Notes under the pieces: generated by a model
Seen by the model: the letters and a program-made list of their open reading frames with translations, nothing else
What the model was told of the DNA's origin: nothing
Database searches by the model: none
Position numbers and translations under genes: made by a program
Assembly: GCA_021814005.1 (NCBI GenBank)
Contig: JAKAJC010000001.1
Location: 99,824-163,823, forward strand
Source: Microcaldota archaeon
Lineage (GTDB): Archaea > Micrarchaeota > Micrarchaeia > Anstonellales > Anstonellaceae
DNA length: 64,000 nt
Direction: 5' to 3'
Shown here: positions 3,471 through 60,509 of the stretch, piece by piece
Position numbering within the stretch: the first letter of the stretch is position 1
How the letters are laid out: the number at the start of each line of letters is the position of its first letter

Positions 3471-3529
3471 GGCACAAGAAGGAATGGAAAAATCAAAAAG
3501 GGAGGGGGTTGAAAGAAGGAAAAATTGCT

Positions 3530-3976: not shown

Positions 3977-3997
3977 TGTTGGCACCTCGGTGTTTTT

Positions 3998-21691: not shown

Positions 21692-21796
21692 GGCCGGATT
21701 TTTTGGCCCATAATCCATTTTTTATATTCCCCAGTGCAAACTAGAATCGAATGATGAGTCTACGACTACTGATGGCCTCAAAACCAGATGAAGACG

Positions 21797-21815
21797 TGAC
21801 TTGACTCTGACCCAA
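21797..21815 (+). repeat. Left attachment-like direct repeat
   Basis: TGACTTGACTCTGACCCAA; identical to the right copy (60491-60509) except for one base at position 16. It lies 67 nt before the integrase start. Confidence 0.7.
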
Positions 21816-38758: not shown

Positions 38759-39340
38759 TCATCTCCACAATCCCAGCTCAGCGCACATCTGCCCGATCTT
38801 CTCCTCGAACACGGAATAAGCCATTCGCACCAAGGGGGCATCGTTTAGCAGAACGTATGGCTGGTGGGTTTTTCGATGAATAGAGCCCGGCAAGGATACA
38901 AGCCAATTCGACAAGACTTCGAGCGCCAGTTGCCCGTTTCGAAAGTATTGCCGCCGCTCGATTGGCGCATCTACCAATAAGTGGATATGCCCGCCCTTCG
39001 AGCCGAATGTCTTTCGCGTGGAAGGGAATAGGCGGGAGGCATAGCTGAACGTATCCGAGTCCTCGCAATCCAATACGACATAGCCTCGAACCCCAGTTAA
39101 AACAGCCCAGCCGTCCGGCTCGCAATTATATGCTTTCCTGAAGTCTTCAAGCAGGTTCCCGGGCGCATCACACTCAACAGCCGCCTGCCGGTGCCCCTTC
39201 ACTATCACCAAGCCAGATCCATTATTCTTGTATGGCAAGACAGCCGCGCCCTCATCATAGAGCTTGCCGGCATAGTAATAGGCGGAGGGCCCATGCTTGG
39301 GTGAGGGGTTGTTTTCCGTACGGTGTTGTTCTATATTCAT
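38759..39340 (-). CDS. Primase-polymerase (PrimPol) domain protein
   Basis: The core reads GWAVLTGVRGYVVLDCEDSDTF, then TFGSKGGHIHLLV, then SLPGSIHRKTHQPYVLL: the D-x-D-type, SxGGxH and final basic motifs of the small bifunctional primase-polymerase domain found in plasmids and viruses. I use ATG 39340; ATG 39367 is also possible. About 193 residues, PrimPol only, no helicase fused. It probably primes replication of the element. Confidence 0.8.
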   Translation of the reverse strand: MNIEQHRTENNPSPKHGPSAYYYAGKLYDEGAAVLPYKNNGSGLVIVKGHRQAAVECDAPGNLLEDFRKAYNCEPDGWAVLTGVRGYVVLDCEDSDTFSYASRLFPSTRKTFGSKGGHIHLLVDAPIERRQYFRNGQLALEVLSNWLVSLPGSIHRKTHQPYVLLNDAPLVRMAYSVFEEKIGQMCAELGLWR

Positions 39341-39507
39341 AGGGAATTCACGACCCGTTTTCTTCATTTCCAGCCCGTAATTCTGCAAAAACCAGTTGAT
39401 TTGACTGGTCAGAAAAGGGAGGCAAAAAGGCGTAAAACGCCCCCAAATCCAAAATACCCGTCCAAACACCGGTAATTACTGGTTTTAAGCCAAGGAATAC
39501 CTCCGTT
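39341..39507. promoter_or_regulatory. Repeat-rich gap between virB4 and primPol
   Basis: It holds CCAGT-7 nt-ACTGG, a GGCG-TAAAA-CGCC hairpin and a near-palindrome ACCGGTAATTACTGGT. This is the promoter region of the PrimPol gene and may include an operator or replication signal; the sequence alone does not decide which. Confidence 0.35.
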
Positions 39508-42030
39508 TCATGCGAATATTGATGCCAGCGAATCCTTGATTTTGGGTTTGGTAATCACGGTGGCATAGCGCTGATAGTCGGCCTCATAGGCCCAATGCGT
39601 CACGATGATGTAGTAGCCGTCCGGGTATTTGTCGCGCAATTTCCTGAACCGCTCCTCCAAGTCCTTGTTGCGCTTCTCCACCCACGATCCAGTCTCGATT
39701 TCGAAGGCTATCCGCTTGCCCTTGGAGGAAACCACTATGTCCGGCTCCACGGAATCGTTCAAGATGACGGTTTCGCAATAGGGTTTTACCGCATCGCGCA
39801 CCATGAGCACCATCAGAGCATGGGTCGGCCCCTGGTTGCCGTGCGGTTTTACCATCCATTTGGGGCCGCGACCGCCCCCGAACGGCTCCAAGCTCACTTC
39901 TTGATAGCCCATGCTCTTGAGCACCCGGAGCTGGTTTTCGTCCATTTCCGAGTATTTGTAGTAATCCGCGTCGGTGTCAAGCCCGACCTCATACTTTTGC
40001 TTGCCCCGTAAGCCCTCTTCTGGGCTTAAGGGAGCCCTGAAAGTCTGCTTGCTCTCAGCCACGGCCCCCAAATGCTGTTTCTGCGACAAATGGATCACTT
40101 CGTTGGGGTCGGTGGTAATCATGTCGTGGATGGTCTTGGAGGGCTTGGTGAAGAAGCGGGTTCTATCCTCGCCAGAAATAAGAAGCCCGTGCCCCTTGCC
40201 GCATTTTATCAAAAAGTCCTTCTCGGAAGCGTTCAATTTGAGAGAATCCGAAATCAGATCTATATTCGTCGTATTCTGGTGCATCAGGATTTTGGTGGCC
40301 GTCTGATTAAGGATAGACCGCCCGCCATCAGTAGAAAGCAAATCCTCAAGCTCCTGCGTGATGAAGCCCAATGACGTGCCGAACTTGCGCGAGGTCTTGA
40401 TGAAGTCGAGCAAATACCCCTCGGCTTCCTTCGAGCGCAATAATGCCCAGCCCTCATCGATGAGCAAAACCTTGGGCTTGTTGTCCATCTTTATCTCCCT
40501 GAACAGGAAGTCCAGCACGGCGAACATCATCAAAGTCCGGACAGAAGAGGGCAGCTTCGACAAATCAAAGTTGATGAAGCGCTGCTGCAAATCGATTTTG
40601 GTTTTCCTGTCCAAAAAGCCGAAGAAGCCGTCCCGCGTATACATCGCAGTCCTGTTTGACAATACTTCCAACGAGCGGGTTTCCTGCTTGCTCAAAGACT
40701 TGTCTGACTTTGACAAATCCTTGCGGTTCTTCTGCACGATGGTATAGAAATCCGAAAAGGTGGGCGGCTCCTTGTTCCAGGTGGAGGGGTCGCTCTGGAA
40801 AATGCCCTTCAACTCATAGGTTTGCAGGAGCATTTGGTTCAAAACTCCCTTCTGGCTCTCGCTCATGCCTCCGATGATGATATCGAAGATGGAAATGAGA
40901 GAAAGCATTTTCGAGCCGAAGTCCTCATTAGCCAAATCGAAGATGTTGATGATGCTATCCGAATAGCGGGACAGTTCGATGGTTTGCCCGCCAAATCGGT
41001 TGCACAGCTCCTTGTATTCGGAATTCGGATCCAGCACATAGATGCGCGCATCCATGGCAATAAACAACTGAATCAGGAGATACTTCGCCGTGTAGCTCTT
41101 CCCGCTCCCCGACGTGCCCAGAATGAAGAAGTGCTTGTTTGGCAGGGCGTCAAAATCTACATAAACAGGCGTTTTGGTTTCCTCCTCTTTGCCCAATAGC
41201 ACGCCTTTCCTAATCGCACAGGAGGACGAGATGAATGGAATGGTAGCAGCAAGTGAATTCGTAGAAAACTCCTGCTGGACTTTCAAATCATCCTCTCCAA
41301 GAGGCAGGCAGGACCGCACTGCCGGAGCCATGCGGTAATTGCAGCTTTTCGGGATGATGAGCATGGAGTTCAAATTAGACTTGCATTTCTCAGTCAGGAA
41401 ATTCAATTTCTCCTCGGTATCCGCTTTGTTGTCAAGATACAACGACACGCGGAAAATCTTCTCCTCTCCCTTATACAATGCCTCGTAAAGCCTTTTCGTA
41501 TCTGCCAATTTGGTTTCCAGCGCCTGATTGGGGATGCCCTTGGTCTGGCTCATGTACAAGTCGGTGGTTTGGTGGAGAATCTGGTTGTGCAAATAAGCCA
41601 AAGTGTCATTTATCGACAATGGCTCGATGTGCTTCGAGATATCATAATCCTCGTTTTTGGACAAGAAAGTGCGCAGCCATCCGTCTTCGACATGACGGGG
41701 ATAGCCGCCGGCCTGGATCACCCTGTGCCTCATCTCGTTGAAGCGGGCGCTGTCGGGAGTAATCACAACGCGGGAGGGGGCCAACAGATAGGGGAACAGC
41801 TCCTGCAACTGTGGCTTGGCCTCTTTCGGGGCCAGAAACGGGATATTCTTCTGCCACCACGGGATTTCGAATACCTTCAACTGCTGCCGCTCAAGGACCG
41901 CCTTGACGCGCTCGGTTACCTTGCGCTCAATCTCGTCCTCGTTTATGGCGATGGGCGGGGTTTTTTCTTCCGGTTTTCCAATGGGATATTGTTTCGGTTT
42001 GGGTTTGGAGTTCCTTGTCTTCTTGGCCAT
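39508..42030 (-). CDS. virB4: VirB4-family transfer ATPase with nuclease-like C terminus
   Basis: About 840 residues. Walker A ILGTSGSGKSYTAKYLL around residue 305 and Walker B VLLIDEGWALL around 550, with the VirB4/HerA pattern FGTSLGFITQELEDLL. The C-terminal about 120 residues contain EPDIVVSSKGKRIAFEIETGS, a D...ExE pattern like a PD-(D/E)xK nuclease core. ATG 42030 (MAKKTRN) is preferred to 42039. It overlaps the preceding gene by about 104 nt in another frame. It powers DNA or protein transport across the membrane. Confidence 0.9.
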   Translation of the reverse strand: MAKKTRNSKPKPKQYPIGKPEEKTPPIAINEDEIERKVTERVKAVLERQQLKVFEIPWWQKNIPFLAPKEAKPQLQELFPYLLAPSRVVITPDSARFNEMRHRVIQAGGYPRHVEDGWLRTFLSKNEDYDISKHIEPLSINDTLAYLHNQILHQTTDLYMSQTKGIPNQALETKLADTKRLYEALYKGEEKIFRVSLYLDNKADTEEKLNFLTEKCKSNLNSMLIIPKSCNYRMAPAVRSCLPLGEDDLKVQQEFSTNSLAATIPFISSSCAIRKGVLLGKEEETKTPVYVDFDALPNKHFFILGTSGSGKSYTAKYLLIQLFIAMDARIYVLDPNSEYKELCNRFGGQTIELSRYSDSIINIFDLANEDFGSKMLSLISIFDIIIGGMSESQKGVLNQMLLQTYELKGIFQSDPSTWNKEPPTFSDFYTIVQKNRKDLSKSDKSLSKQETRSLEVLSNRTAMYTRDGFFGFLDRKTKIDLQQRFINFDLSKLPSSVRTLMMFAVLDFLFREIKMDNKPKVLLIDEGWALLRSKEAEGYLLDFIKTSRKFGTSLGFITQELEDLLSTDGGRSILNQTATKILMHQNTTNIDLISDSLKLNASEKDFLIKCGKGHGLLISGEDRTRFFTKPSKTIHDMITTDPNEVIHLSQKQHLGAVAESKQTFRAPLSPEEGLRGKQKYEVGLDTDADYYKYSEMDENQLRVLKSMGYQEVSLEPFGGGRGPKWMVKPHGNQGPTHALMVLMVRDAVKPYCETVILNDSVEPDIVVSSKGKRIAFEIETGSWVEKRNKDLEERFRKLRDKYPDGYYIIVTHWAYEADYQRYATVITKPKIKDSLASIFA

Positions 42031-42976
42031 CGGCTTCACCTCCCTTCTTTTCGAAGAATGACTTGGCGACGACCACCCGCGAGAGGTAGTCCTCGTCCAC
42101 CTCGACGTAGCCGTCGAAATACGACATGTAGAGCGAAATCAGCTCGTTGGTGGAAAGCCGCCTGGAAACCAGGCTGCAATTGGCGAGCTTCTGTTGCATG
42201 ATGGAAGTCCGGTCGGCCAGCTCCTTGCGGTCGGACTCGTCCCGCTCGGCCTCCAGCTTGTCCAGCTTCCGGCTTAACGCCGCCTGAACCTTCTCTTTGA
42301 GGATTTCGAGCCTGTCCTGGTAGCGCTTTGCCAGCGAGTCGGACGGGTCGTAGGGCACGATGAGATAGTAGAGCCGCTCCTTGACCCGGTTCTCGTTGAC
42401 GTATTTCTGCTCGAACAGCTTGAAATCCTTGTAAAGGGCGATCAGTTGGGGATTGTTGGTCTTCTCCACCCGGCTATCGTGGCCTGAGAAATAGTCGGCC
42501 AAATCCACGTTGACGGTTCGGACAAGTATCTGGACGGGGTGGGTGAGCTGGTTGAGGAAGTCGCGGTAGTTGAGGATGACGCTCTCCCGCCGCCCCTCGT
42601 CCATGTTCTCGAAATTGATGGGCGTGATGGTGAGGATGGCTCGCATCTGCCCGTTGGAGAGATAGACGGTGTTGTGCTCGATTTTGCGGACTCCTATGAA
42701 CTCCTGCACCCTCGGATCAAGCGCCCCGCCCTCTCGGATGCCCGCGTAGTACGCCCAGCGGTTGAGCAGCGACTTCTCCCATCCCAGTTGGATGAAGCCG
42801 AAACCGCAGATGATGAAGCAGGCCGGCAGGACGAACTTTCCGGGGCCCGCGAAGGGCAGGCCGTAGGAAAAGAACGCCAGAAGGGCGAACACAACGGCAT
42901 AGAGCAACTGCCCCAAGGTGAGGTTGAAGACTATTTTCTCCTTGTACTGGATTTTGTCGGGGATATCATAAGCCAT
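41927..42976 (-). CDS. PrgI/VirB3-like membrane protein fused to a VirB4 N-terminal domain
   Basis: 349 residues. Residues 1-95 are PrgI-like with two membrane helices (LLYAVVFALLAFFSYGL; FVLPACFIICGFGFIQL). Then YLSNGQMRAILTITPINFENMDEGRRESVILNYRDFLNQLTHPVQILVR matches the N-terminal domain of VirB4/TraC proteins. So the VirB4 N domain is on this gene and the motor on the next. The charged C-terminal 35 residues are coded in the overlap with virB4. Part of the transport channel. Confidence 0.85.
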   Translation of the reverse strand: MAYDIPDKIQYKEKIVFNLTLGQLLYAVVFALLAFFSYGLPFAGPGKFVLPACFIICGFGFIQLGWEKSLLNRWAYYAGIREGGALDPRVQEFIGVRKIEHNTVYLSNGQMRAILTITPINFENMDEGRRESVILNYRDFLNQLTHPVQILVRTVNVDLADYFSGHDSRVEKTNNPQLIALYKDFKLFEQKYVNENRVKERLYYLIVPYDPSDSLAKRYQDRLEILKEKVQAALSRKLDKLEAERDESDRKELADRTSIMQQKLANCSLVSRRLSTNELISLYMSYFDGYVEVDEDYLSRVVVAKSFFEKKGGEADGQEDKELQTQTETISHWKTGRKNPAHRHKRGRD

Positions 42977-43912
42977 TCATACCAACCCCTTGAGCAGCAT
43001 AAGCCCGCCGATTCCGGCGAGATGGATAGTTTGGCTGGCGACGCCCAGGACGGCCAGCAGGATGAGGGCGAGATTGACCAGCCCGAACGACATCAGGGCG
43101 AACATCAGGCCCACCGAGCGCACGAAGGTATCGGCCAGGTTGGGGTCGTTGGTGCCAAAGAGGGCAGAGAAGCCCAGCAGAACGAGCGCGTCGGCGGTGG
43201 TCATGAAGATAAAGACCAGCACCAGCTTGAGGAAGACGCTGCCCCATTTCTGGGTGGGCGGGATGAAGTAGAGGAATACGGCAATTGGGAAAAGCATCAT
43301 CATGATCGGGATGAACAGGTAGCGCAGAAGGAGGGTGAGGTAGGTCAGGAAACCCAATGTTACTCCGCCCAGAAGCATGACAAATGTCAGGATGGAAGCA
43401 TCGCCCGTGGTCTGGAACTTGAAGATGGAGGTCATGGACTTGCTGGCGATGGAAGAAGAGAGGTAGGCGTTGAAATCGAGCATCATGGTGAAGATTTGGA
43501 AGGAGAAGGAGAGCACCAAAACCATGATGAACATGTTTTCCATCCACTTGCGGGTTTCAAGCCTGCCTTCCACGTCGCCGGAGCGCAGGATGGAGAAGAG
43601 AGCCAGCGCCATGAGAACGAGGACGAAAAGGCCCTCCAATACGCCCATCACCGCCCCGTAGGGAACACAGAACCAGTTGGGGTCGGGGTTTGAGAACATG
43701 AACTTGAAGGCATTGTCGCTGATGGTCTGCTCTGCTTCCCCAAGCCCCTTGTTGGTGTAGGTGAAGAACGCCGTGACGATTTGGCCCGGTAAGCTTCCGA
43801 TTGCTCCAAGGAGGGGGCCCAAGTCGATGGCGGGCGGCGGGTCGTTTCCCGAGCCGTCACCTTCTGCGAAGGCGAACCCGACCAGCAAGAGGAGCAGAAG
43901 GAGGCGTTTCAT
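42977..43912 (-). CDS. VirB6/TrbL-like polytopic membrane protein
   Basis: 311 residues with a signal peptide (MKRLLLLLLLVGFAFA) and six or seven membrane helices, including FLTYLTLLLRYLFIPIMMMLFPIAVFLYFI, the VirB6/TrbL-type central region. It abuts the PrgI-like gene (start one base after this stop) and follows the pilin genes. It would form the inner-membrane channel of the transport machine. Family by topology and context. Confidence 0.75.
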   Translation of the reverse strand: MKRLLLLLLLVGFAFAEGDGSGNDPPPAIDLGPLLGAIGSLPGQIVTAFFTYTNKGLGEAEQTISDNAFKFMFSNPDPNWFCVPYGAVMGVLEGLFVLVLMALALFSILRSGDVEGRLETRKWMENMFIMVLVLSFSFQIFTMMLDFNAYLSSSIASKSMTSIFKFQTTGDASILTFVMLLGGVTLGFLTYLTLLLRYLFIPIMMMLFPIAVFLYFIPPTQKWGSVFLKLVLVFIFMTTADALVLLGFSALFGTNDPNLADTFVRSVGLMFALMSFGLVNLALILLAVLGVASQTIHLAGIGGLMLLKGLV

Positions 43913-44142: not shown

Positions 44143-44451
44143 TCACCAGCCGCAGAGGTCGGACGATCCGGCCAGGTATTTGACCACAAGCGGAGCCAGC
44201 CAGATGATGATGACTCCCAAGATTGCGCCCTGGATCATCATTTTGGCGTTGTTGCGCTCGGTTTGCTCGTGCGAGGTGGCCAGATGGAAGCCCGCATAGG
44301 CGGCCAGCAGCACGCCGCCCGCCGTGCCGAACAGCTGGATGATGGAATAGAGCCGGCAGAGCGGCTGGTCCGGCGGAATTACGAGGCCGGTGGATGCGGC
44401 CATGGCAAGCCCCGAAAGTAGCATCAGGGCTACGGTGTCTTTGAGTTTCAT
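44143..44451 (-). CDS. VirB2/TrbC-like pilin, first copy
   Basis: 102 residues with a signal peptide (MKLKDTVALMLLSGLAMA) and two membrane helices (LFGTAGGVLLAAYAGFHLA; MIQGAILGVIIIWLAPLVV) around a charged loop (TSHEQTERNNAK), the pilin layout of type IV secretion. Two Cys (PLCRLY and DLCGW) could form a disulphide. It overlaps the methyltransferase stop by 4 nt (ATGA). Confidence 0.75.
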   Translation of the reverse strand: MKLKDTVALMLLSGLAMAASTGLVIPPDQPLCRLYSIIQLFGTAGGVLLAAYAGFHLATSHEQTERNNAKMMIQGAILGVIIIWLAPLVVKYLAGSSDLCGW

Positions 44452-45257
44452 GTCAATCGTCCCTCCCCCTGAAAGATGATTTTGAGATGGCCGTCAGGGA
44501 TACCGGCCTTCTGGCGTATGATGCGCATGTTGTAGGGATTGCTCTCGTAGCCTGCCGAACGGCGGTTCAGGTGAGATGCCACTTTGGGGAGCATCCCGTC
44601 TCCTAAGAATGGATCAAGGATGATGTCGCCCTCGTCGCTGAAGTGGAGGATGAGGGATTCCACCATCTCCTCGGGGAAAATGTCGGGGTTGGGCATCGGC
44701 GAGCGGGCATCCAGGTCTTGCAGGTATCGGACGGGGCCGTTTCGGCAGAATACGGCCGCGCCATGCGAATCCATGCCGCATTCCCCCTTCAACCGGCGTG
44801 ATTTGCGGGGCAGGCCCTTGGAGAAGATGAGGGTGCGCTGGATTTGGAAATCGTCCGAAAGATGGGCTTTATTGTCAAAAAGGGTGGTCTGGCGGCCGGA
44901 AATAGCCGTATTCTTGGCTGTCCGGCTCCAGAACACGTCCTCGCAGAAGCGGAAACCCGAGCGGCGCACGGCAAAGATGATGTGGGCGGGGATGGGCATC
45001 TTCTCGATGTTGCTGGCACTGTCGCTGAGGTTGATGCACAAGAAGCGTCCCGGCTCAAGCACGCGCTTGCATTCCGAAAACACGCCCATAAGGCCCTTGA
45101 GATAGGATTCGAAGTCGTTGAGATATCCGTTCCCTTCCGGGCCGGCGAGGCGGAAATTGAGGTTCGGGGGGCTTGTCACGATGAGCTGCACCGATGAGGC
45201 GGGCAGCTCCCTCATGTTCCGGGCGTCGCCGATTACTACGAGGTGTTCCGCATCCAT
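44448..45257 (-). CDS. Orphan DNA methyltransferase (N4-cytosine/N6-adenine, permuted)
   Basis: 269 residues. Catalytic motif IV TSPPN (residues about 29-33) precedes the AdoMet motif I region DPFLGDG (about 213-219), the beta-class order as in N4-cytosine enzymes such as PvuII. No matching restriction gene is next to it. First gene of the transfer operon, with the ACCTGC palindrome 44 nt upstream of its start. It may protect the element from host restriction during transfer. Confidence 0.9.
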   Translation of the reverse strand: MDAEHLVVIGDARNMRELPASSVQLIVTSPPNLNFRLAGPEGNGYLNDFESYLKGLMGVFSECKRVLEPGRFLCINLSDSASNIEKMPIPAHIIFAVRRSGFRFCEDVFWSRTAKNTAISGRQTTLFDNKAHLSDDFQIQRTLIFSKGLPRKSRRLKGECGMDSHGAAVFCRNGPVRYLQDLDARSPMPNPDIFPEEMVESLILHFSDEGDIILDPFLGDGMLPKVASHLNRRSAGYESNPYNMRIIRQKAGIPDGHLKIIFQGEGRLT

Positions 45258-45300
45258 GAGAATGGATGGCGCTTAAGTGGAGATATTGATTCATGTCGAT

Positions 45301-45320
45301 ACCTGCAAAATTTTGCAGGT
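45301..45320. promoter_or_regulatory. Palindrome ACCTGCAAAATTTTGCAGGT, candidate operator, copy 1
   Basis: A perfect 20-bp palindrome between the HTH gene (stop 45323) and the methyltransferase start (45257). The same sequence occurs at 60104-60123, with matching flanks (GAT before, TTT after, in opposite orientation). Confidence 0.75.
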
Positions 45321-45638: not shown

Positions 45639-45675
45639 ATTTCCGCGGAAGAAGTGATGGAATTTCCGCGGAAAT
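45639..45675. promoter_or_regulatory. ATTTCCGCGGAAAT palindromes, copies 1 and 2
   Basis: A full 14-bp palindrome at 45662-45675 and a 12-base copy at 45639-45650, with a half site CATTTCCGCAG at about 45608-45618. The full palindrome recurs at 60043-60056 before orc1. Confidence 0.7.
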
Positions 45676-50232: not shown

Positions 50233-50266
50233 CCGATGCCGACCGAAAAGCATCATAAATTGATAT

Positions 50267-50286
50267 CATCATATAATTATATGATG
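50267..50286. promoter_or_regulatory. Perfect 20-bp palindrome over the cmtR-like start
   Basis: CATCATATAATTATATGATG covers the two ATGs at 50281 and 50284. Probably the operator through which the encoded repressor controls itself and the P-type ATPase operon. Confidence 0.75.
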
Positions 50287-50598
50287 AATTTACAAAAGCT
50301 GGCCGCCAAGGCCAAGTTCTTCTCCGGCTTCTCCGACCAGACGAGGCTCTCCATCGTGGAAACGCTGGCTGACGGGCCGAAGAACGTGGGGGAAATCGCG
50401 AAGGCCACGGGCCAGCCCCAGCCCAACGTCTCCAACCATCTGGCCTGCTTGTTGGAGTGCGGGCTGGTCAGGCGCGAGCGCAAAGGCAAGTGCAACCTCT
50501 ATTCCCTGAGCGAGAAGGATGTCGAGCATCTGTTGGCCGTTTCGGAGAAAATCGTGGCGAAGCACTATGGCAGGCTGGCGGCCTGCACGAAGCCGTAG
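50281..50598 (+). CDS. ArsR/CmtR-like metal-sensing repressor
   Basis: 105 residues: FFSGFSDQTRLSIVETLADGPKNVGEIAKATGQPQPNVSNHLACLLECGLVRRERKGKCNLYSL. HLACLLECGLV carries two Cys in the recognition helix, the arrangement seen in CmtR-type Cd/Pb sensors, and a third Cys is near the C terminus (AACTKP). Heads the operon with the secreted protein and the P1B ATPase. Start at 50281 or 50284. Confidence 0.88.
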   Translation: MMNLQKLAAKAKFFSGFSDQTRLSIVETLADGPKNVGEIAKATGQPQPNVSNHLACLLECGLVRRERKGKCNLYSLSEKDVEHLLAVSEKIVAKHYGRLAACTKP

Positions 50599-50632
50599 AG
50601 CGATGCAAAATGCATAGAAAACAGGTGATGAA

Positions 50633-51154
50633 ATGATAGACAAGCCCAAATTATTCATAATCGCAATGGTAGCCATGACAGTGCTGGCGCTGGCGTTCTT
50701 TGCTTCCCAGGCGGGTCCGGCCAGGAGCAATATTCCTATTGCTTCGAACGCGTGCAATGGCGCCGGATGCAATGCCAGCCCCTTTGCGGCAACCCCTTCA
50801 ACTGCCGCCGCGGCAAGCGCTGCCGTGCAAACCCAGCCGGCCGTGCAATCCAATCCATCCGCGAAAGTCAATTCGCCGTCCGAACCCCTGCAGCAGGTTT
50901 CCGCCGACCAGCTGGTGGTCAATCCCGCCTCGTTCCTGGGAAAGAGGATTTCACTCGTGGCGCCCGTGGGCGCTTTGCTGCCCGAGAAGAGCATGTTCAC
51001 AGTGACATGCAGCTGCGGCCAGACGCAGATTCCGGTTTCCTACAAGGGCGCGTTCCCGGCGCAGGGCCGGCGAGTTGCCGTGCAAGGCACGCTCAGGCAG
51101 GACGCGGCCGGACAATACTACTTTGATGCGCAGAGCTGGGCTTATGCGAACTGA
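50633..51154 (+). CDS. Secreted/anchored protein with OB-like C-terminal domain
   Basis: 173 residues. An N-terminal membrane helix (LFIIAMVAMTVLALAFFA), a Pro/Ala/Ser linker with CNGAGCNAS, then a domain ISADQLVV-like (DQLVVNPASFLGKRISLVAPVGAL...FTVTCSCGQTQIPVSY...RRVAVQGTLRQD) resembling small OB-folds such as CcmE or NirD-like proteins. TCSCG may bind metal. It overlaps the ATPase start by 11 nt, so they are coupled; perhaps a metal chaperone outside the cell. Confidence 0.65.
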   Translation: MIDKPKLFIIAMVAMTVLALAFFASQAGPARSNIPIASNACNGAGCNASPFAATPSTAAAASAAVQTQPAVQSNPSAKVNSPSEPLQQVSADQLVVNPASFLGKRISLVAPVGALLPEKSMFTVTCSCGQTQIPVSYKGAFPAQGRRVAVQGTLRQDAAGQYYFDAQSWAYAN

Positions 51155-53651
51155 GCCGCTCGCGAGGGTTGTCCTCCCATTGCTGGTATTCGTCCTTGCC
51201 GTCGCGATCCACTTCTGGCTTTTCGCCTCCGCGCAGGCGCAGACGGCCGGACAGTGGGCGGTGCAGCAGCACTATGACCCGGTCGCGGGCTATATTGCAA
51301 CACAGGAGATACTGCTGGGCATCTCCTACGCGCTCATGGCCGCTTTCACCTCTTATGTGGCGCTTCTCTTCTTCGCGCACCGGGCAAAACTGTCCCAGCT
51401 GGGAGCATCCGCCGGCTTCACCGCCGCCCTATATGCGTTCGGCTGTTTCCTCATCGGCTGCTGCGGCTCGCCGATGCTGGCAATATATATCGGCTTCTTG
51501 GGGCCCAGTTTTGTCGGAGTATCAAAGCAGATCGTCTTGGGCGTAACCATGATTTCCGTCGCCTATGGCTACATGAGCATGGCGAAATTCAGGAAGCCGG
51601 CCAAAGATGGCGGCAAGGATGAAAACAAGACGGACTGCGTGGATGATTCGTGCGCCTGCGCTCCCACCGATAAGAAGGCCGCCGCAAGCGCCAGCCCGCC
51701 CGCCGACAAGAAGGAGTCCGCCTGCATAGAGGACGCATGTGCCTGCGCCCCTGCAAGTGAAACGAAGGCAGAAGATGCAGAAAAAAACGCCGGTTTCGCC
51801 GGCATGATAGCGTTCGCTTTCGTTGGCGTGGTCGCTATCCTAATTCTCGCAGAACTGCTGGTGGAGCGCGCGGGCCTGCTGGAAAAGCCGCTGGAGCTGC
51901 TTCCTTGGCCGCTTGTCGTTGCCGCGACGCTGGCGGGCGGATATCCGATTTTCAAGAATGCGTTGATGGGGCTGAAATCGGGCAAGATAAACGCCGACCT
52001 GCTCATGAGCATCGGAATTGCAGCCGCCATGGCCATCGGCGAGTTCAGCGCCTCCACCCTCATCGTGTTCTTCATGGGCATCGCGCACTTCCTGGAACGC
52101 TTCACTTTCGAGCGCTCAAGGAAGGCCATTAGGGACATCGTGGCATTCGCCCCCAAAAGCGCGCGGGTGGAGCGAAATGGCCGGGAGGCTCTCGTTCCGA
52201 TAGAGGAGATACGGGTCGGGGACACCCTGACCGTCAAGCCCGGCGAGCGCATCGGCGCGGATGGCACCGTCGTATCCGGCTCAAGCAGCGTGGACGAATC
52301 GCCCATCACCGGCGAATCCATGCCGAAAGAGAAGCGGGCCGGAGACGGCGTTTTCGCCGGGACTTTGAACCAGCACGGGCAGCTGGAAATCAGGGTGAAA
52401 CGGGCCGGCGCGGACACCATGCTGGGCAAGATAATCCACCTGGTCGAGGAGGCGGAGGCCTCACGCGCCCCGGTCCAGAAATTCGCGGATAAATTCAGCT
52501 CATACTATTTACCCGTCGTGTCCCTCTCCGCGCTGGCCACATACCTGATAACAGGCAGCATCACGCACGCCATCGCGGTGGTGGTGGTCGCATGCCCCTG
52601 TGCGATAGCGCTGGCAACCCCCATGTCGGTCGTCGCGGCAGTAGGCAACGCGGCCAAGAATGGGATCGTGGTCAAGGGAGGCGTCCATCTGGAGAACCTC
52701 TCCAAGGTGGACACGCTGGTGGTGGACAAGACCGGCACGCTCACCCACGGAAGGCCGGAAGTTACGGACATCTACGCCGCAGGAGGAGAAAGCGAGGGTA
52801 AAATCGTGGCCATCGCAGCGGCGCTTGAAATCCATTCCGAGCACCCGTTGGCGCGGGCGGTGCTGGAAAGGGCGGAAAAAGACAAGGTGAAATTTGACAA
52901 AGCAGGAAAGTTCCATTACAAAGTCGGCATGGGCGTTTCGGGGACAATAGATGGGAAGGCGGCTGCGGCGGGAAATGAAAAGCTCATGTCTGCCAATGAC
53001 ATTGACGTGTCCGTGCTCATCAAGAAGAAGGAGCAGTTTGAGAGCGAGGGAAAAACCGTCCTGCTGGTCGCCAGCGGGTCCAAAGCCATCGGGCTGATTG
53101 CGGTATCGGACACCCTCCGAAATGACGTGGCCGGGGCGTTGGGAGAGCTTCGGGCTCTTGGAATAGGCAGGATAGTGATGCTCACAGGAGACAACGTGCG
53201 GGTGGCGGCGGCTGTGGCGAAAGGCGTCGGCATAAGCGAATTCCGCGCCAACCAGCTTCCGCACGACAAGGTGGAGTGCGTGAAGGCGCTCCAGAAAGAG
53301 GGGAAGCGCGTGCTCATGATAGGGGACGGGGTGAACGACGCCCCGGCCCTCGCGCAGGCGGACGTGGGAATCGCCATGGGCTCGGGGACTGACGTGTCCA
53401 TAGAAACGTCGGACATCGCGCTGATGAGGGACGAGTGGGCGCAGGTGCCGGCCGCCGTGCGCATAAGCCGGAGGGCGTTCTCGACTATAAAGCAGAACAT
53501 CGCCTTTGGCGTGATTTTCAACGTTCTGGGCATTGCGCTCGCGTCCGTGGGCATACTCACGCCCATGTTCGCGGCTGCAGCGCAGTCGCTTCCGGACTTG
53601 GCGGTGTTCGTCAATTCGTCGAGGCTATTGTTTCTCAAGAACGGAAGATAA
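51144..53651 (+). CDS. P1B-type heavy-metal ATPase with extra membrane domain and Cys-rich linker
   Basis: I start at ATG 51144 (MRTEPLARV), inside the preceding gene; 835 residues. Residues 1-150: four membrane helices with FLIGCCGSPMLAIYIGFLG, not part of ordinary P1B ATPases. Linker: two copies of a Cx4CxC motif (CVDDSCACAP, CIEDACACAP). Then the ATPase: TGESMPKE, ACPCAIALATP (CPC ion site), DKTGTLTHG, HP motif SEHPLA, GDGVNDAPAL. Exports a soft metal ion, perhaps Cd, Pb, Zn or Cu; the CmtR-like regulator favours Cd/Pb. Confidence 0.93.
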   Translation: MRTEPLARVVLPLLVFVLAVAIHFWLFASAQAQTAGQWAVQQHYDPVAGYIATQEILLGISYALMAAFTSYVALLFFAHRAKLSQLGASAGFTAALYAFGCFLIGCCGSPMLAIYIGFLGPSFVGVSKQIVLGVTMISVAYGYMSMAKFRKPAKDGGKDENKTDCVDDSCACAPTDKKAAASASPPADKKESACIEDACACAPASETKAEDAEKNAGFAGMIAFAFVGVVAILILAELLVERAGLLEKPLELLPWPLVVAATLAGGYPIFKNALMGLKSGKINADLLMSIGIAAAMAIGEFSASTLIVFFMGIAHFLERFTFERSRKAIRDIVAFAPKSARVERNGREALVPIEEIRVGDTLTVKPGERIGADGTVVSGSSSVDESPITGESMPKEKRAGDGVFAGTLNQHGQLEIRVKRAGADTMLGKIIHLVEEAEASRAPVQKFADKFSSYYLPVVSLSALATYLITGSITHAIAVVVVACPCAIALATPMSVVAAVGNAAKNGIVVKGGVHLENLSKVDTLVVDKTGTLTHGRPEVTDIYAAGGESEGKIVAIAAALEIHSEHPLARAVLERAEKDKVKFDKAGKFHYKVGMGVSGTIDGKAAAAGNEKLMSANDIDVSVLIKKKEQFESEGKTVLLVASGSKAIGLIAVSDTLRNDVAGALGELRALGIGRIVMLTGDNVRVAAAVAKGVGISEFRANQLPHDKVECVKALQKEGKRVLMIGDGVNDAPALAQADVGIAMGSGTDVSIETSDIALMRDEWAQVPAAVRISRRAFSTIKQNIAFGVIFNVLGIALASVGILTPMFAAAAQSLPDLAVFVNSSRLLFLKNGR

Positions 53652-53658
53652 GCACGCC

Positions 53659-54408
53659 CTACTTCCGCGCCTCAATCTTGAGGCTTTCAAGCGGGATTCC
53701 GCCATACTGACGCCCGCCGATGTCCTTGTCTTCGCCTAGAATACTGACCTTGAAGCCCGCGTCTTCGAGTTTCTTGAGATAGACATCTCGCAATAGGGCG
53801 CCGCCCACGCAGCCGGAAATCAATTCGTCATCCTTCCTCTGCACAGCAGTCAATTCTTTCAACAAGACGATATCGGAGACATACATTCTCCCACCCTCTT
53901 TGAGCACCCGGAAAGCCTCGGAGAACACCTTGTCCTTGTCGGGAGCGAGGTTGATGACGCAGTTGCTGATCACCACGTCCACGGACGCATCTGCCAGCGG
54001 AAGCTCCTCGATGTCTCCCAGCTTGAACTCCACGTTCGAATAGCCGTGTTTCGCGGCGTTCGCCCGCGCCTTCTTCACCATGGCCGGCGTCATGTCCACG
54101 CCGATGACCTTGCCGCTCTTGCCGACTCTTCGGGCGGAAAGGAAAGCGTCGAAACCGGCTCCGCTCCCCAAATCCAATACCACATCGCCTTCTTTCATCT
54201 GCGAAAGGGCGGTCGGGTTGCCGCACCCAAGACCCAGATTCGCCTCCGGCACGTTGTTTATCTCCGCTTCCGAATATCCGATGCTTTTGGAAACTGCCGC
54301 TGCATTCGTACCGAGCGGGGAGCAGCAGGACGGGCCGCAGCCGCATCCCTCATTGCTGGCAATCTCGGAATACCTTTTCTTGACGATCTCTTTGGTTTTG
54401 CCCCCCAT
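53659..54408 (-). CDS. arsM: Arsenite methyltransferase
   Basis: 249 residues from ATG 54408 (MGGKTKEIV), with GAGGGGG upstream; the in-frame GTG 54420 is less likely. The N-terminal [12 protein letters not shown], AdoMet motif [16 protein letters not shown], the [14 protein letters not shown] segment and the late Cys in [10 protein letters not shown] are those of ArsM, which binds As(III) with several Cys and methylates it. Last gene of the ars operon; convergent with the P1B ATPase, with 7 nt between stops. Confidence 0.95.
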
Positions 54409-54416
54409 GGTCCCCC

Positions 54417-56384
54417 TCACTTGAACCTAATCAACAGTGCGGAGTTCAGCATCACCGAGAAGCATCCGGCCTCCTGGAATATCACCGCGAGCGCAGGCAC
54501 GAAAATGCCGACCGCCGAGAGCCCGAAACCCAGCACGTTGTAGGCCATTGAGAACATGATGTTGCCCTTTATCGTGCGCAAAGTCTGCCGGCTGAGCCGT
54601 ATGGTCTCGGCCACCTTCCCGATGTCGTTGGTCTTGAGCACGATATCCGCCGCCCCTATGGATACATCGGTGCCGGAGCCCATGGCGATGGAGACATTCG
54701 CGGCCGAGAGCGCGGGGGCGTCGTTGATGCCGTCCCCCACCATCGCCACTTTGTACTCTTTCTTCAGCTCCTCCACGATGCGCACCTTGTCCTGCGGAAG
54801 CAACTCCGAGCGAACGTCCTCGATGCCGAGCTGTTTGCCGACCGATTCCGAGACGGTGTGGTGATCCCCCGAGAGGAGCACGATTTTCTTAATCCCGAGC
54901 TTGCGCAAATTCTCCACGCCTACGCGCGAGTTCTCCTTCAGCACATCCGCCACCGCGATCACTCCGGCGACCTTGCCGTCTACAGACACGATCAGGAGCG
55001 TCTTTCCCTCCTGCCCGCGCTTGACGATCTCAGCCTGCGCTTTTGCGGATATCTTCACCTTGTTATCAGAAAGCAGCCTGCTGTTCCCGACCAGCACTTC
55101 CTTCCCCTTCACCTTGGCAAAAATGCCCTTGCCGGGGAAAACCTTGAAGGAGGACGGCTCACAAAGTGTTATCTTGTGCTTCTTTACCTCATTCAGGATG
55201 CTTGTTGAAAGCGGGTGTTCGGATAGCTTCTCAGCACTTGCCGCATAGAAGAGCAGCTTTTCCGCCCCTATCCCGTCGAACGTGGAAACATCTGTCACGG
55301 AAGGCTTGCCGAACGTGAGCGTGCCGGTTTTGTCGAAGACCACGCAGTCCACCTCAGAAGCCGCTTCCAGATGCGCGCCGCCCTTGATCATAATCCCTTT
55401 GCGTGCGCCATTGCCGATTCCCGCAATGACCGCCGCAGGTGTCGCCATAGATAGGGCGCAGGGGCAGGCCACGAGCAGCACGGCGGCTGTTTTGACGGGG
55501 TCGCCGGTCAGCAGATACACCAGCGTGGCGAAAACGAGGACGGCGGGAATGAATACGCTTGCTATCCTGTCGGCGTATTTCTGCACTTGGGGCTTGTTCA
55601 GCTGCGCATCCTGCACCATCTTCACCACGCGCGCCAGCGTGGTGTCCTCTCCTACCTTGGTCGCCTTCATCTCGAAAGCGCCAAGCTCGCAGATAGTGCC
55701 GCTCATCACCGATTCGCCAATGCTTTTTTCGAGGGGGATGCCCTCACCGGTAATCACGGATTCGTTGATGGAGCCGCTGCCTTTGGTTATGGTGCCGTCA
55801 ACAGGTATGCCTTCGCCGCTCTTGACGACCAATATGTCGCCGGGCTTCACGGTTTCGACCGCGACCTCTTCCTCGACAAATCCATGCTTGACTCGGGCTT
55901 TTTTGGGTGCGAGAGCCATCAGTTCATCCACCGCGCTCTTCATCTTCACCAGCGTGAATATCTCAAGTGTCTCGATGCCGAGCATGAGAACGATGATCGA
56001 GCCTGCCGGGAAGAACCGGCTTGAGAAGAGGCGGTTGAGGTCCGCGCCCAGCCACGATGCGTCCACCGAATGGGCGGCCGGGACGGCCAATGCGGCGATG
56101 ATGGCGATTCCGATGAGGACGTCGGTTGTGAGTTGCTTCTTCAACAGGGCGTCAAGCGCCCGGCCATATATCTGCGCCGAGCCAATGAAGATGGCAAGTA
56201 ATGCGGTGTCCACCCCGAATAATGAATCAAGGACATGGAACCAGCGCAAGGTGAAGAGGAGCAGGACTGTGCCGTAGATGGCATATTGCCGGTATTTGCG
56301 CATCCTCTGCTCCTCGCCCAGCTTGTCCGTTTTGACAGACGGTACACTGCACGATTCTCCGGGGCCGCATGTACTGCAACCCAT
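54417..56384 (-). CDS. P1B-type ATPase within the ars operon
   Basis: 655 residues. Short Cys-rich N terminus ([10 protein letters not shown]) but no HMA domain. Motifs: [34 protein letters not shown] motif [17 protein letters not shown]. Six to eight membrane helices. It abuts the ArsD-like gene (TGAATG). In an arsenic operon a P1B ATPase is uncommon; it may export As/Sb-thiol species or simply an accompanying metal. The family is certain, the ion is not. Confidence 0.93.
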
Positions 56385-56705
56385 TCAAGCCACCTTGAGG
56401 CGTTTTGCCACTTCTTTCTCCAGTTCGGCATAGGGCGGGATAGTGCCGGGCGCCAGCACCGTTTCTTGCACCGAGATGAACGGGAGCAGGATTTTCCCAG
56501 CCGAGCCTGCCGTTTCTCGGAGGTATGGGAATTGCTTGAGATTGAACCCTTGATAGGCCTCGAATTCCAGGCGCTCTTCCCCGAATTTATTCACCAGCTT
56601 TTTGGCGGCAAGCTCAAGAGCTGCCACGTCCTTGTTGGGGCCGCAGCCGCATCCTTCGCCGCATGTTTGGGAGAAGAACAGGCGCACAATCACTTTTTCA
56701 CTCAT
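56385..56705 (-). CDS. ArsD-like thioredoxin-fold metallochaperone
   Basis: I start at ATG 56705 (MSEKVIVRL), preceded by GGTGA; 106 residues. The N-terminal strand is followed by FFSQTCGEGCGCGPNKD, a cluster with CxxxCxC spacing, then a helix with VNKFGEERLEFEAY. Like ArsD it could carry As(III) to the pump, here perhaps to the ATPase encoded next. Cys pattern and place in the operon support a metal task; the ArsD name is approximate. Confidence 0.7.
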   Translation of the reverse strand: MSEKVIVRLFFSQTCGEGCGCGPNKDVAALELAAKKLVNKFGEERLEFEAYQGFNLKQFPYLRETAGSAGKILLPFISVQETVLAPGTIPPYAELEKEVAKRLKVA

Positions 56706-56710
56706 TAAAA

Positions 56711-57808
56711 TCACCTTGAAGCGTTATCTTTCGCATCTGTGGAAGCTGGACTCGACCGAAACAGTCTCCCCCGCAGCCATAGCGAGACATCCACCAGCCC
56801 AATCAAAACCGGCACCTCGACCAGCGGCCCGATCACGGCCACGAACGCCTGCCCCGAGCCGATGCCGAACACAGCTATCGCCACGGCAATAGCAAGCTCA
56901 AAATTGTTGCTAGCAGCCGTCAGGGCCAGGGTGGCCGTGCGTGGGTAGTCCTCGCCCGTCTTATATGCCATGAAGAAGCTGACGAGGAACATGATGACGA
57001 AATAGAGGAGGAGCGGAATCGCAATCATCGCCACGTCAAGGGGAATTTGCAGAATCAGGCTGCCCTTGAGGCTGAACATCACGATGATGGTGAAGAGCAG
57101 GGCGATGAGCGTTATGGGTGAGATGGCAGGCATGAATTTTTGGTGGTACCATTCCTCGCCCTTTTTGCGGATAAGGTATTGATGCGTCAGCAAACCTGCG
57201 AAGAAGGGGATTCCCAAGTAGATGAGCACGCTCTCGGCGATTTGCCAGATGCTGATATCCACAACCGTGGAGGCAAGCCCGAACATCGGCGGTAGTATGG
57301 TGAGAAAGAGCCACGCATATGCACTGTAAAATATAATCTGAAAGATGCTGTTCATGGCCACGAGGCCGGCGGCATAATCTGTGTGGCCTTTTGCAAGCTC
57401 GTTCCACACCAGCACCATGGCGATGCAGCGGGCAATCCCGATCATGATGAGGCCATACATGTATTCGGGCCGCTCGCGCAGGAAGACGATGGCAAGGATG
57501 AACATGAGGATGGGGCCGAATATCCAGTTTTGGAGAAGCGACAGGGCAACTGTTTTGGGGTGGTTCTTGAACACGTCGGCCAGCTTCTCGTAGCGCACCT
57601 TGGCCAGCGGCGGATACATCATGACGATGAGGCCGACTGCGATGGGGATGGACGTGGTGCCGATTTGGAGGCTGCTCACAAGCTGCCCGAACTGGGGGAG
57701 GAAAACGCCAAGTGCCAATCCTATTCCCATTGCGAGGAATATCCAGAGCGTGAGGTAGCGGTCAAGGAAGGATAATTTGTCAGAGGTCTTTTCGCCTGCC
57801 ATGCTCAT
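56711..57808 (-). CDS. acr3: Arsenite efflux permease ACR3
   Basis: 365 residues, ten membrane helices. The ACR3/BASS hallmarks are present: [52 protein letters not shown] with the conserved Cys of the transport site, and [23 protein letters not shown]. Exports As(OH)3 using the proton gradient. It overlaps arsC by 4 nt. ATG 57802 is a possible start as well. Confidence 0.97.
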
Positions 57809-58200
57809 ACACTCTCCGTTTTTTCCATCTCAACCATCAAACCTTTGATTTTGGCCCCAATCATATCCCTGACTTTGCGGTATTCCTCAATCGGTTTTCC
57901 TTTCGGGTCGGGTATCTGCCAGTCAATACGGTGCTTGGCCGCCACGAATGGACAGGCGTCGCCGCAGCCCATGGTGATGACATAATCGAACTTCTGGCCC
58001 CTGTAATATTCGGTGCTGTGCGGAACCTTTCCTGATAGGTCGATGCCGGCCTCTTTCATGACTTCGACCGTTTTGGGATCTATTTGAGCGGCAGGTTCGC
58101 TTCCGGCTGAGAAGGCCTGACCGTTGGCCATCCTGTTGAATAGAGCCTCCGACATCTGGCTACGGCAGGCATTGTGGATACAGACGAACAGCACGCGCAT
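57805..58200 (-). CDS. arsC: Arsenate reductase (low-molecular-weight phosphatase type)
   Basis: 131 residues. Active-site P-loop [14 protein letters not shown] (CxxxxxR), the Asp loop IPDP, and additional Cys (MGCGDACP) for the intramolecular disulphide relay, as in thioredoxin-coupled ArsC. Reduces arsenate to arsenite for export by ACR3. 10 nt after arsR. Confidence 0.96.
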
Positions 58201-58210
58201 GGATACACCT

Positions 58211-58498
58211 TTAGCAGCTTGCCTCTTTCCGCTTCGTTTTGGGTATCTTGAGGATATCCATTATCTGGGCCGCTTCGGGGCTCTTGAGCTTGTACCAGAT
58301 ATTCACCCCGACGCGGCGGGATTCGAGTATGCCGGATTGGAGCAGCACCTTGAGGTGTTGCGAAACTGTGGGCTGGGCTTTGCCGCTGGCGGGCACGAGG
58401 GTGCAGGCGCACATTTCACCGCCCAGCAGCGCCTGGACGATTTTGAGGCGGGTTTCGTCGCCGAGGGCTTTGAGGAGGAGGGCTTTTTGCTTGAGCAT
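58211..58498 (-). CDS. arsR: Arsenic repressor ArsR
   Basis: 95 residues from ATG 58498 (MLKQKALLL). Winged helix with LGDETRLKIVQALLGGEMCACTLVPASGKAQPTVSQHLKVLLQSGILESRR; the CxC (MCACTL) sits where As(III) binds in classical ArsR (ELCVCDL), with another Cys at the very C terminus. TATTTATATA lies 20-30 nt upstream, so the transcript is leaderless. First gene of the arsRC-acr3-arsD-like-ATPase-arsM operon. Confidence 0.95.
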   Translation of the reverse strand: MLKQKALLLKALGDETRLKIVQALLGGEMCACTLVPASGKAQPTVSQHLKVLLQSGILESRRVGVNIWYKLKSPEAAQIMDILKIPKTKRKEASC

Positions 58499-58499
58499 A

Positions 58500-58523
58500 A
58501 TATATCGGTATATGCGAATATAT
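58500..58523. promoter_or_regulatory. ars operator
   Basis: An imperfect inverted repeat ATATATCG-7 nt-CGAATATAT between the TATA box and the arsR start. TATATTCGCATATA on the minus strand differs in one base from the palindrome at 45772-45785. Confidence 0.7.
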
Positions 58524-58672
58524 AAATACTTAATGGATACCGCGTTCTTCGTCTCTATTCGCATTCTGATATGCTCAGGCGCAATCGTTTACTCCTAGGT
58601 GTTCTTATCACGACTCAGGCAATCGAATCTTTTCCAAGATGGCAGGCAGAAGAATATCCGAAATATCTGCGT

Positions 58673-58707
58673 TCAAATATCCTGCTCCATCACAGTCTGC
58701 CGCTTGT
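58673..58707. repeat. Right copy of 35-bp direct repeat
   Basis: Identical to 50198-50232; here it is the genuine 3' end of the histone-fold gene. Confidence 0.9.
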
Positions 58708-58843
58708 TCGCAGCCGCCCGCAAGCACGCCTTTTTCAGCAAATTCTCAATTGCCGCGTTCACTGCCGAATAAAGCCCGCTCGATGTCCTCATCTTGTTCT
58801 GCCGCAAATACTGCTTCAAGCTCGCCCGCTTCGCTATCTCCAT
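58673..58843 (-). CDS. Minimal histone-fold protein lacking helix 3
   Basis: 56 residues, MEIAKRASLKQYLRQNKMRT at the start, then SSGLYSAVNAAIENLLKKACLRAAANKR and TVMEQDI at the end. It lines up with archaeal histones: helix 1 region, central long helix, the loop KRQTVMEQDI corresponding to GRKTIKAEDI, and then a stop where helix 3 should begin. GGTGGTGG precedes the ATG and the orc1 stop is 10 nt upstream, so they form an operon. The last 35 bp are the right copy of the cassette repeat. Confidence 0.75.
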   Translation of the reverse strand: MEIAKRASLKQYLRQNKMRTSSGLYSAVNAAIENLLKKACLRAAANKRQTVMEQDI

Positions 58844-58853
58844 GTCCACCACC

Positions 58854-59972
58854 CTATCGCCTGCATAGCAATTGGATTATCTTGCCCTTGAGCAGACCTC
58901 CCTTGGAGGCCGATCTGACCGTGATTAATCCCTTGGCGTCCAGCAGCCCCAGATAGTTGCGTATCTGCCGCTTGCTTATCGTCTTGACGGCCATGAACTC
59001 GTTGTAGAAATCGGATGATGCCACCTCGCCCTTTTTGGCGATGATGCGCAAAGCCAGCTTCTCGTCCCCGGACAATGCCATGCCCTTCATGTTGAAGTCG
59101 GTAAAGCAGTCCTCGGCCAGAGTTCTGGCGTAATCTGTTTTGGAGGAAACTTCCTCCACGTCCTCAGGAGTAATCCTTTTGTGCCCGCGGTTCTGCGCCT
59201 TGCGGGCAGCCTTCCAGAGAATATCGAGAGCCAGTCGGGCGTTGCCGTTGTTGGCCTTGCCGATTTTGGCACAGGCTTCGAGCACGGGAGTGGGACAGGA
59301 GCCGGAAGAGAGGGCTTTCGAGGCACGGTCCTTCAGTATCTCCACGAGCTGCTCCAGGGAATATTCCTTGAATTCGAGGGTGGTGAAGTGAAGGAGCGTC
59401 CTCACCTGGTCGCTTAGGCGCTCCAAAACCTGAGAGTCTATGGAAATGCTCACCACGCCGAAGCGGGTGCGGCCGTTCTCGTTGGCGCGGGCGATAGTAT
59501 AGAAGATATCCTCCTCGCCACGAAGGATGAGGCTGTTCACCTTATCGAGCACAAGAAGGATGGAAAGGCCGTCCCGGTCCAGATGCTCGCGGATGCGGGC
59601 GAATACCTCGTCCGTGGCCAGTCCGCGGCGGGGGATCGGGATTTGGAGGGTTTCGATGATGCGGGAATAAACCCCCATCTTGGTTGGGTATTCCCAGCAA
59701 TTGACATAAACGGGGATGACTTTGGAGGTTTCCTTGCTCAACTGCCCCAGCACATAACGCATGGAGGTTTGCTTACCAGAGCCGGCTGGGCCGTGGATAA
59801 AGAGATATTCGCTTTGGTTATGGCTCAAAAGGGGTCGGAGGGTGTCCGCAATTTCTTTCAGTTCATTTTCTCGCAAAAGAGGGCCAAGCGCATCATGTTC
59901 GGGTTGAATCGCTTTTTCATTTTGGATGATTGCGCTTGCCTCATGATTGTCTGCTTGGAACAGATCCTCCAT
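58854..59972 (-). CDS. Orc1/Cdc6-like replication initiator
   Basis: I start at ATG 59972 (MEDLFQADNHEAS), preceded by GGTG and a TATA-like TTTATATT (60005-60012); 372 residues. AAA+ motifs: Walker A HGPAGSGKQTSMRY, a Walker B-like LLVLDKVNSL in which the second acidic residue is replaced by Lys, sensor VVSISIDSQVLERL, arginine region LALDILWKAAR, and a C-terminal winged helix (YNEFMAVKTISKRQIRNYLGLLDAKGLI). Likely initiator of the element. The Walker B change may reduce hydrolysis. Confidence 0.92.
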   Translation of the reverse strand: MEDLFQADNHEASAIIQNEKAIQPEHDALGPLLRENELKEIADTLRPLLSHNQSEYLFIHGPAGSGKQTSMRYVLGQLSKETSKVIPVYVNCWEYPTKMGVYSRIIETLQIPIPRRGLATDEVFARIREHLDRDGLSILLVLDKVNSLILRGEEDIFYTIARANENGRTRFGVVSISIDSQVLERLSDQVRTLLHFTTLEFKEYSLEQLVEILKDRASKALSSGSCPTPVLEACAKIGKANNGNARLALDILWKAARKAQNRGHKRITPEDVEEVSSKTDYARTLAEDCFTDFNMKGMALSGDEKLALRIIAKKGEVASSDFYNEFMAVKTISKRQIRNYLGLLDAKGLITVRSASKGGLLKGKIIQLLCRR

Positions 59973-60000: not shown

Positions 60001-60123
60001 ACCAATATAAACCTATCGGTTTTGTGGGGGCTGAAAAGTGCGATTTCCGCGGAAATGAACCCCGTGTAGGTGGAAAAAAGGGGCTTGGGGAGGATATTTG
60101 GAAACCTGCAAAATTTTGCAGGT
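60001..60123. promoter_or_regulatory. orc1 upstream region with both element palindromes
   Basis: TATA box at about 60005-60012 (minus strand), ATTTCCGCGGAAAT at 60043-60056 and ACCTGCAAAATTTTGCAGGT at 60104-60123. The stretch 59975-60015 also holds repeats of the kind TTGGT(G)TAAAA near the orc1 start, which could be initiator sites. Divergent promoter for the small gene at 60177. Confidence 0.6.
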
Positions 60124-60490: not shown

Positions 60491-60509
60491 TGACTTGACT
60501 CTGACACAA
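60491..60509 (+). repeat. Right attachment-like direct repeat
   Basis: TGACTTGACTCTGACACAA; one mismatch to the left copy at 21797-21815. It ends one base before the stop codon of the chromosomal gene 60511-61170. Confidence 0.7.

Follow-up and report, generated by a model that had tools for sequence, protein, structure and literature searches.

The missing third helix is a defining trait of the α3 or face-to-face (FtF) histones, in which helix 3 is reduced to 3–4 residues (PMC11390915). Known members are HTkC of Thermococcus kodakarensis (PDB 9F2C), D4GZE0 of Haloferax volcanii, and HLp of Leptospira perolatii (PDB 9QT0/9QT1). FtF histones are described as torus-shaped homotetramers in which dimers pack face to face, and the most conserved FtF residues in D4GZE0 are R41, N45, R47, T49, and D54, of which R41 and N45 belong to the dimer–dimer interface (PMC11390915). 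The HLp tetramer wraps about 60 bp of DNA (PMC12701072). The α3 histones described are reported to be encoded by single-gene operons, and haloarchaeal plasmids have already provided examples of FtF histones on elements (PMC11390915).

The window analyzed here, a stretch of 64,000 nucleotides of Micrarchaeota DNA, encodes a 56-residue histone directly downstream of an orc1/cdc6 initiator gene. We give slightly better than even chances to the reading that this histone is an FtF member and the second gene of an orc1–histone replication module, carried by Micrarchaeota integrative elements with type IV secretion system (T4SS) genes. The features of the locus are collected in Table 1.

Table 1. Features of the integrative element and its integration target in the window
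Feature	Position	Strand	Evidence or remark
C/D-box sRNA-like gene, integration target	about 21751–21810	+	C ATGATGA, D' CTGA, C' ATGAAGA, D CTGA in order
attL, TGACTTGACTCTGAC, guide plus box D of the sRNA-like gene	21797–21811	+	15-bp repeat; empty site in L077
Tyrosine recombinase (integrase), left end	21882–23114	+	Phage_integrase, E 2e-25
Prim-Pol type primase	38759–39469	minus	PF09250, E 5.7e-6
VirB4-like T4SS ATPase	39508–42039	minus	Profile match
PrgI-like protein	41927–42976	minus	E 1.2e-4, below curated cut-off
Membrane protein, conserved beside PrgI in related elements	42977–43912	minus	TrbL-like by position; no Pfam match
T4SS pilin	44143–44451	minus	PF18895
N6/N4 DNA methylase of transfer block	44448–45257	minus	Profile match; conserved in related elements
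Second copy of palindrome ACCTGCAAAATTTTGCAGGT	45300–45320		Upstream of transfer block
Second exact dyad ATTTCCGCGGAAAT	45662–45675		Intergenic, upstream of methylase/T4SS gene block
Displaced fragment: perfect 35-bp copy of histone gene 3' end, with stop codon	50198–50232	minus	Matches 58673–58707
Arsenic/heavy-metal cargo: arsR, P-type ATPases, arsM, Acr3, arsC, arsR	50233–58672		Between two histone 3' ends
FtF-type α3-truncated histone gene, 56 aa	58673–58843	minus	Pfam/PDB sequence matches, AlphaFold2 model, Foldseek, homologue alignment, dN/dS
orc1/cdc6 initiator gene, 372 aa from ATG 59972	58854–59972	minus	TIGR02928, Cdc6_lid, alignment
Dyad ATTTCCGCGGAAAT, ORB-like candidate Orc1 site	60043–60056		84 bp upstream of orc1
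20-bp palindrome ACCTGCAAAATTTTGCAGGT	60103–60123		Upstream of orc1
attR, same 15 bp TGACTTGACTCTGAC, right element end	60491–60505	+	15-bp repeat

The histone gene starts at the ATG at 58843, with an in-frame GTG also present at 58852 on the minus strand. Its product, MEIAKRASLKQYLRQNKMRTSSGLYSAVNAAIENLLKKACLRAAANKRQTVMEQDI, ends in NKRQTVMEQDI. The first-pass annotation had placed the gene correctly, omitting its strand, and had described a histone fold that stops after the KRQTVMEQDI loop; it had also noted, rightly, that truncated histones of this kind are on record. The Pfam Histone profile matches the protein with an E value of 2.8e-5 and 24.8 bits, slightly under the cut-off of 26.4 bits. 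The best solved structure found by sequence search is HTkC (PDB 9f2c, E 0.0096), and Bdellovibrio HBb is a further sequence match. A single-chain AlphaFold2 model built from a 27-row alignment has a pLDDT of 89.8. It contains helices at residues 6–15 and 24–45 and a 3-residue helical turn at 53–55 (DSSP). Foldseek superimposes the model on HLp (9QT1) and HTkC (9F2C) with TM scores of 0.94–0.97, and on HBb with a TM score of about 0.9. As modeled, the protein adopts a histone fold and stops directly behind loop 2, and what had been reported as an absent helix 3 is a remnant of three residues, like that of published α3 histones. The full helix 3 of about ten residues found in nucleosomal archaeal histones is absent, the chain stopping at D55–I56. 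The host genome has, in addition, a gene for a canonical histone whose helix 3 is complete (locus L056), so the element-borne gene is an extra one.

A single-sequence search of the phylum found histone homologues in 28 of 295 genomes. An alignment-based search gave matches in 57 of 301, and histones of other types may account for the weaker ones, those with E values above 1e-8. All 26 phylum homologues aligned with the window histone share its end, one residue past the loop aspartate. Residues R19, R42, N46, T50, and D55 are invariant in the 27 aligned sequences, and R48 is conserved in at least 90% of them. The RxTxxxxD motif reads R48-Q-T50-V-M-E-Q-D55, and all five conserved residues of D4GZE0 map, with an offset of one, onto R42, N46, R48, T50, and D55. 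By sequence and predicted single-chain fold, the window protein is an ordinary FtF α3-truncated histone. Comparison with its counterpart at the sister locus L033 (dN 0.027, dS 0.357, dN/dS about 0.08) indicates strong purifying selection over the whole protein. A 96%-identical histone is present in the Micrarchaeota record JAKAME010000032.1. The supposition that such a gene is too short for usual length limits does not hold generally, as annotations elsewhere include genes of about 55 aa. Lone 3' fragments of FtF histone genes, next to which no intact gene was found, occur in L115 (3121–3195), L116 (205–285), and L117 (5759–5872 and 3925–4032). L118 is a second element copy in genome G215; its histone is split into two frames (123–289) beside a full-length orc1.

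The initiator gene lies directly upstream of the histone gene on the same strand, and 10 bp separate its end from the histone ATG. Its product scores 200.7 bits against TIGR02928, above the cut-off of 181.3 bits. The proposed operon with an initiator has turned out stronger than first claimed, the same arrangement being found in 21 loci of the phylum including the window (L034, L035, L036, L037, L039, L040, L043, L044, L045, L046, L048, L049, L052, L118, L121, L122, L123, L124, L125, and L126). It recurs across several families. The two genes overlap or lie within 28 bp of each other in 18 of the 20 pairs measured; in L035 one gene stands between them. Pairwise distances of Orc1 and histone are correlated (r 0.68, with none of 5000 permutations as high), a correlation that partly reflects the shared descent of two linked genes. 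Most of these loci also contain genes for VirB4, PrgI, a TrbL-like protein, pilins, a methylase, or an integrase. In several loci VirB4 is convergent to the histone 3' end at a distance of about 90–310 bp. Reverse-transcriptase-like ORFs were seen by eye between VirB4 and the histone gene in L045 (7391–8483) and L124 (7307–8402).

The pairing is not universal. Only the last 18–19 codons of orc1 are left at L033, where inspection by eye showed an ATPase gene in place of orc1 and a transposase-like ORF in the cargo (1–864 and 3174–4865). An integrase but no orc1 is present on the 3.8-kb contig of L047. Around ten homologues, the sequence stretch contains neither element genes nor orc1 (L023, L024, L026–L028, L038, L041, L042, L050, and L051). 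Six of these ten lie near the gene for glycyl-tRNA synthetase, and a chromosomal FtF lineage therefore exists.

By descent, the window Orc1 belongs to the Orc1 family according to profile and alignment. Its Walker A and Walker B motifs are degenerate in the alignment, with GKQ for GKT and DK for DE, whereas those of its relatives are intact with few exceptions. Because of these replacements, this copy may be unable to hydrolyze ATP and may be decaying, although the histone is under selection.

The location on a mobile element, asserted from the outset, is now delimited. The element spans 21797–60505 (38.7 kb) and is bounded by 15-bp repeats. After rps10 lies a C/D-box sRNA-like gene, the sole such pattern in the window, whose last guide and box D make up the left copy. 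The Rfam sR5 model matches this gene at 21748–21811 with 12 bits and an E value of 5.3, against a gathering score of 40. In genome G124 (L077) the site is uninterrupted: the same RNA gene runs continuously from rps10 towards a KH-domain gene, a homologue of which lies to the right of the window element. The integrase, the flanking att repeats, and this uninterrupted site identify the region as an integrative element. A search for the sRNA pattern across the order matched only G124, and conservation of the sRNA therefore rests on one relative. No tRNA lies near either element end, and a tRNA was rejected as the integration site. We know of no described case of an element that integrates into such an sRNA-like gene at its 3' end, as this one does, and a weak literature search returned no sRNA genes as archaeal integration sites. 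The T4SS core genes on the window element are those for VirB4, the PrgI-like protein, and the pilin. Among the genes covered by a general scan, neither a relaxase nor a coupling protein was identified, and conjugation is not established.

Candidate cis sites are found upstream of both the initiator gene and the transfer block, the latter also being preceded by a near copy of the ATTTCCGCGGAAAT dyad. Similar dyads lie upstream of orc1 in L034, L035, L036, L037, L043, L044, and L123. The loci scanned contain 13 dyads of the form TTTCC-NN-GGAAA, where base-composition shuffles predict 0.3, and these dyads are often located 60–90 bp upstream of orc1. They presumably resemble the dyad of archaeal origin recognition boxes. 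Five elements of the f5 family carry the palindrome TGATACAATTGTATCA or close variants in place of the dyad, which speaks against the reading as a replication module.

The 8.4 kb of cargo in the window is bracketed by two histone 3' ends in the same orientation. The 35-bp histone 3' end has two matches in the window and none in shuffles, and the local alignment extends over 51 bp. Two other arrangements of this kind were found. L121 contains one GNAT gene bracketed by a histone 3'-end repeat of about 44 bp (5200–5979), and L037/L114 contains a one-ORF insert bracketed by a repeat of about 80 bp at about 80% (L114 1310–2286). The local scores of the repeats in the three elements are 41–44, against at most 17 in controls, and in all three the similarity ends within 3 bp of the histone stop codon. 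The repeat lengths differ between elements, and local alignment gave nothing clearly above control in 24 of the 27 loci. The sister locus L033 is closely similar to the window up to the histone end and then continues with a different metal cargo. From these alignments, the 3' end of the histone gene looks like a cargo insertion point. The pattern fits cargo that enters at the end of the gene and brings a replacement end. The 35-bp repeat was rejected as the element's own att site, as it lies inside the element and the empty site supports the 15-bp repeats on the integrase side.

If the histone is the second gene of a replication module, Orc1 would bind the ORB-like dyad that precedes the orc1 gene, and would start or regulate replication of the element once it is excised or transferred. 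The histone made along with it would tetramerize face to face, and each tetramer, like that of HLp, might wrap about 60 bp of the element's DNA. The histone could thereby set access to the initiator and promoter region, and could package the element independently of the nucleosomal histone of the host. Its likeliest function would then be that of element chromatin at the initiator locus. Since the same orc1–histone pair recurs on related elements throughout the phylum, such elements seem to supply their replication module with a chromatin protein of their own. Coupling to orc1 is no requirement for FtF histones as such: no annotated orc1 lies within 3.5 kb of the histone in any of the eight haloarchaeal plasmid loci examined, where PadR/HTH regulators, XseA-like genes, ParA, or metal pumps are nearby. 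A broader proposal, that a self-contained module of orc1 and FtF histone shapes its own origin and that the histone 3' end also admits cargo cassettes with a replacement end, is held here only tentatively and is on balance doubtful.

A role in origin architecture or silencing, as first suggested, is no more than plausible. A pure silencing function would make the histone a stealth protein similar to the plasmid-borne H-NS homologues. It would coat the whole element and neighboring promoters and limit the cost in a new host, and adjacency to orc1 would only secure early expression on entry. The histone is an element-borne copy beside that of the host; basic and tail-less, it would be expected to bind nonspecifically; the cargo consists of costly metal pumps; and plasmid-borne H-NS proteins offer by analogy an established parallel. 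We nevertheless regard this reading as unlikely, since nearly all the pairings are with orc1 specifically, a linkage that a pure silencer would not need. Still less probable is an action mainly on host chromatin, in which mixed dimers with the host histone or competition for DNA would make the host accessible for the element to replicate or integrate. The host does possess a canonical nucleosomal histone, and the RxTxxxxD loop is common to both proteins, but FtF proteins are described as homotetramers (PMC11390915).

The bracketed cargo in three elements, lying between an intact gene and a displaced 3' end, could also mean that the histone is largely a passenger whose 3' end is kept as a docking site for cassettes. 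Purifying selection acts across the whole protein, however, chromosomal homologues exist without cargo, most loci lack the repeat, and the differing repeat lengths define no fixed recombination core. This makes the passenger reading improbable, to about the same degree as the action on host chromatin or slightly less so. The shortness of the gene, and the split copy in L118, might suggest a chance ORF or a full-length histone broken by a frameshift. We reject this as hardly credible: the intact homologues all end at the same residue, dN/dS is low, and the histone fold is predicted with confidence.

Histones tend to be regarded as chromatin of the host. Their conserved pairing with an initiator on transferable elements ties chromatin directly to the replication of archaeal mobile elements, and the two genes make up a small system that lends itself to testing. 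Entry of cargo at histone 3' ends, if it occurs, would also explain the accumulation of metal-resistance genes on these elements.

The window histone had no match in a plasmid collection. A 54-aa query derived from HTkC, mostly the HTkC match with gaps and last residues filled in by hand, matched 77 plasmid records, those listed being haloarchaeal. An approximate family consensus of the histone had no match in a phage collection, and the Orc1 alignment had none among viral contigs. The literature searched, with subscription papers mostly outside it, contains no description of Micrarchaeota elements with orc1 and histone.

Among nucleoid proteins of other kinds, the plasmid-borne H-NS family (e.g. 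Pmr of pCAR1) is likewise element-encoded. The analogy is functional only, as the fold is unrelated and linkage to an initiator is no part of their kind. The IHF- and RdgC-associated histones also belong to conserved multi-gene operons, but have other partners, C-terminal extensions, and other lineages (PMC11390915). HBb (Bd0055), the dimeric bacterial α3 histone of Bdellovibrio, shares the short α3 fold. It bends DNA as a dimer, whereas the window protein has the residues of an FtF tetramer. The haloarchaeal plasmid histones resemble the window case in placing an FtF-like histone on an extrachromosomal element, and its being element-borne is thus less unusual than first claimed. HTkC, D4GZE0, and HLp agree with the window histone in length, the three-residue helix 3, the RxTxxxxD motif, the interface arginine and asparagine, and the fold. 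Unlike them, the window histone shares a conserved operon with orc1, and that operon lies on an integrative element. The missing helix 3, the FtF fold, and plasmid-borne FtF histones are known; what sets the window case apart is the conserved orc1–histone operon on integrative elements.
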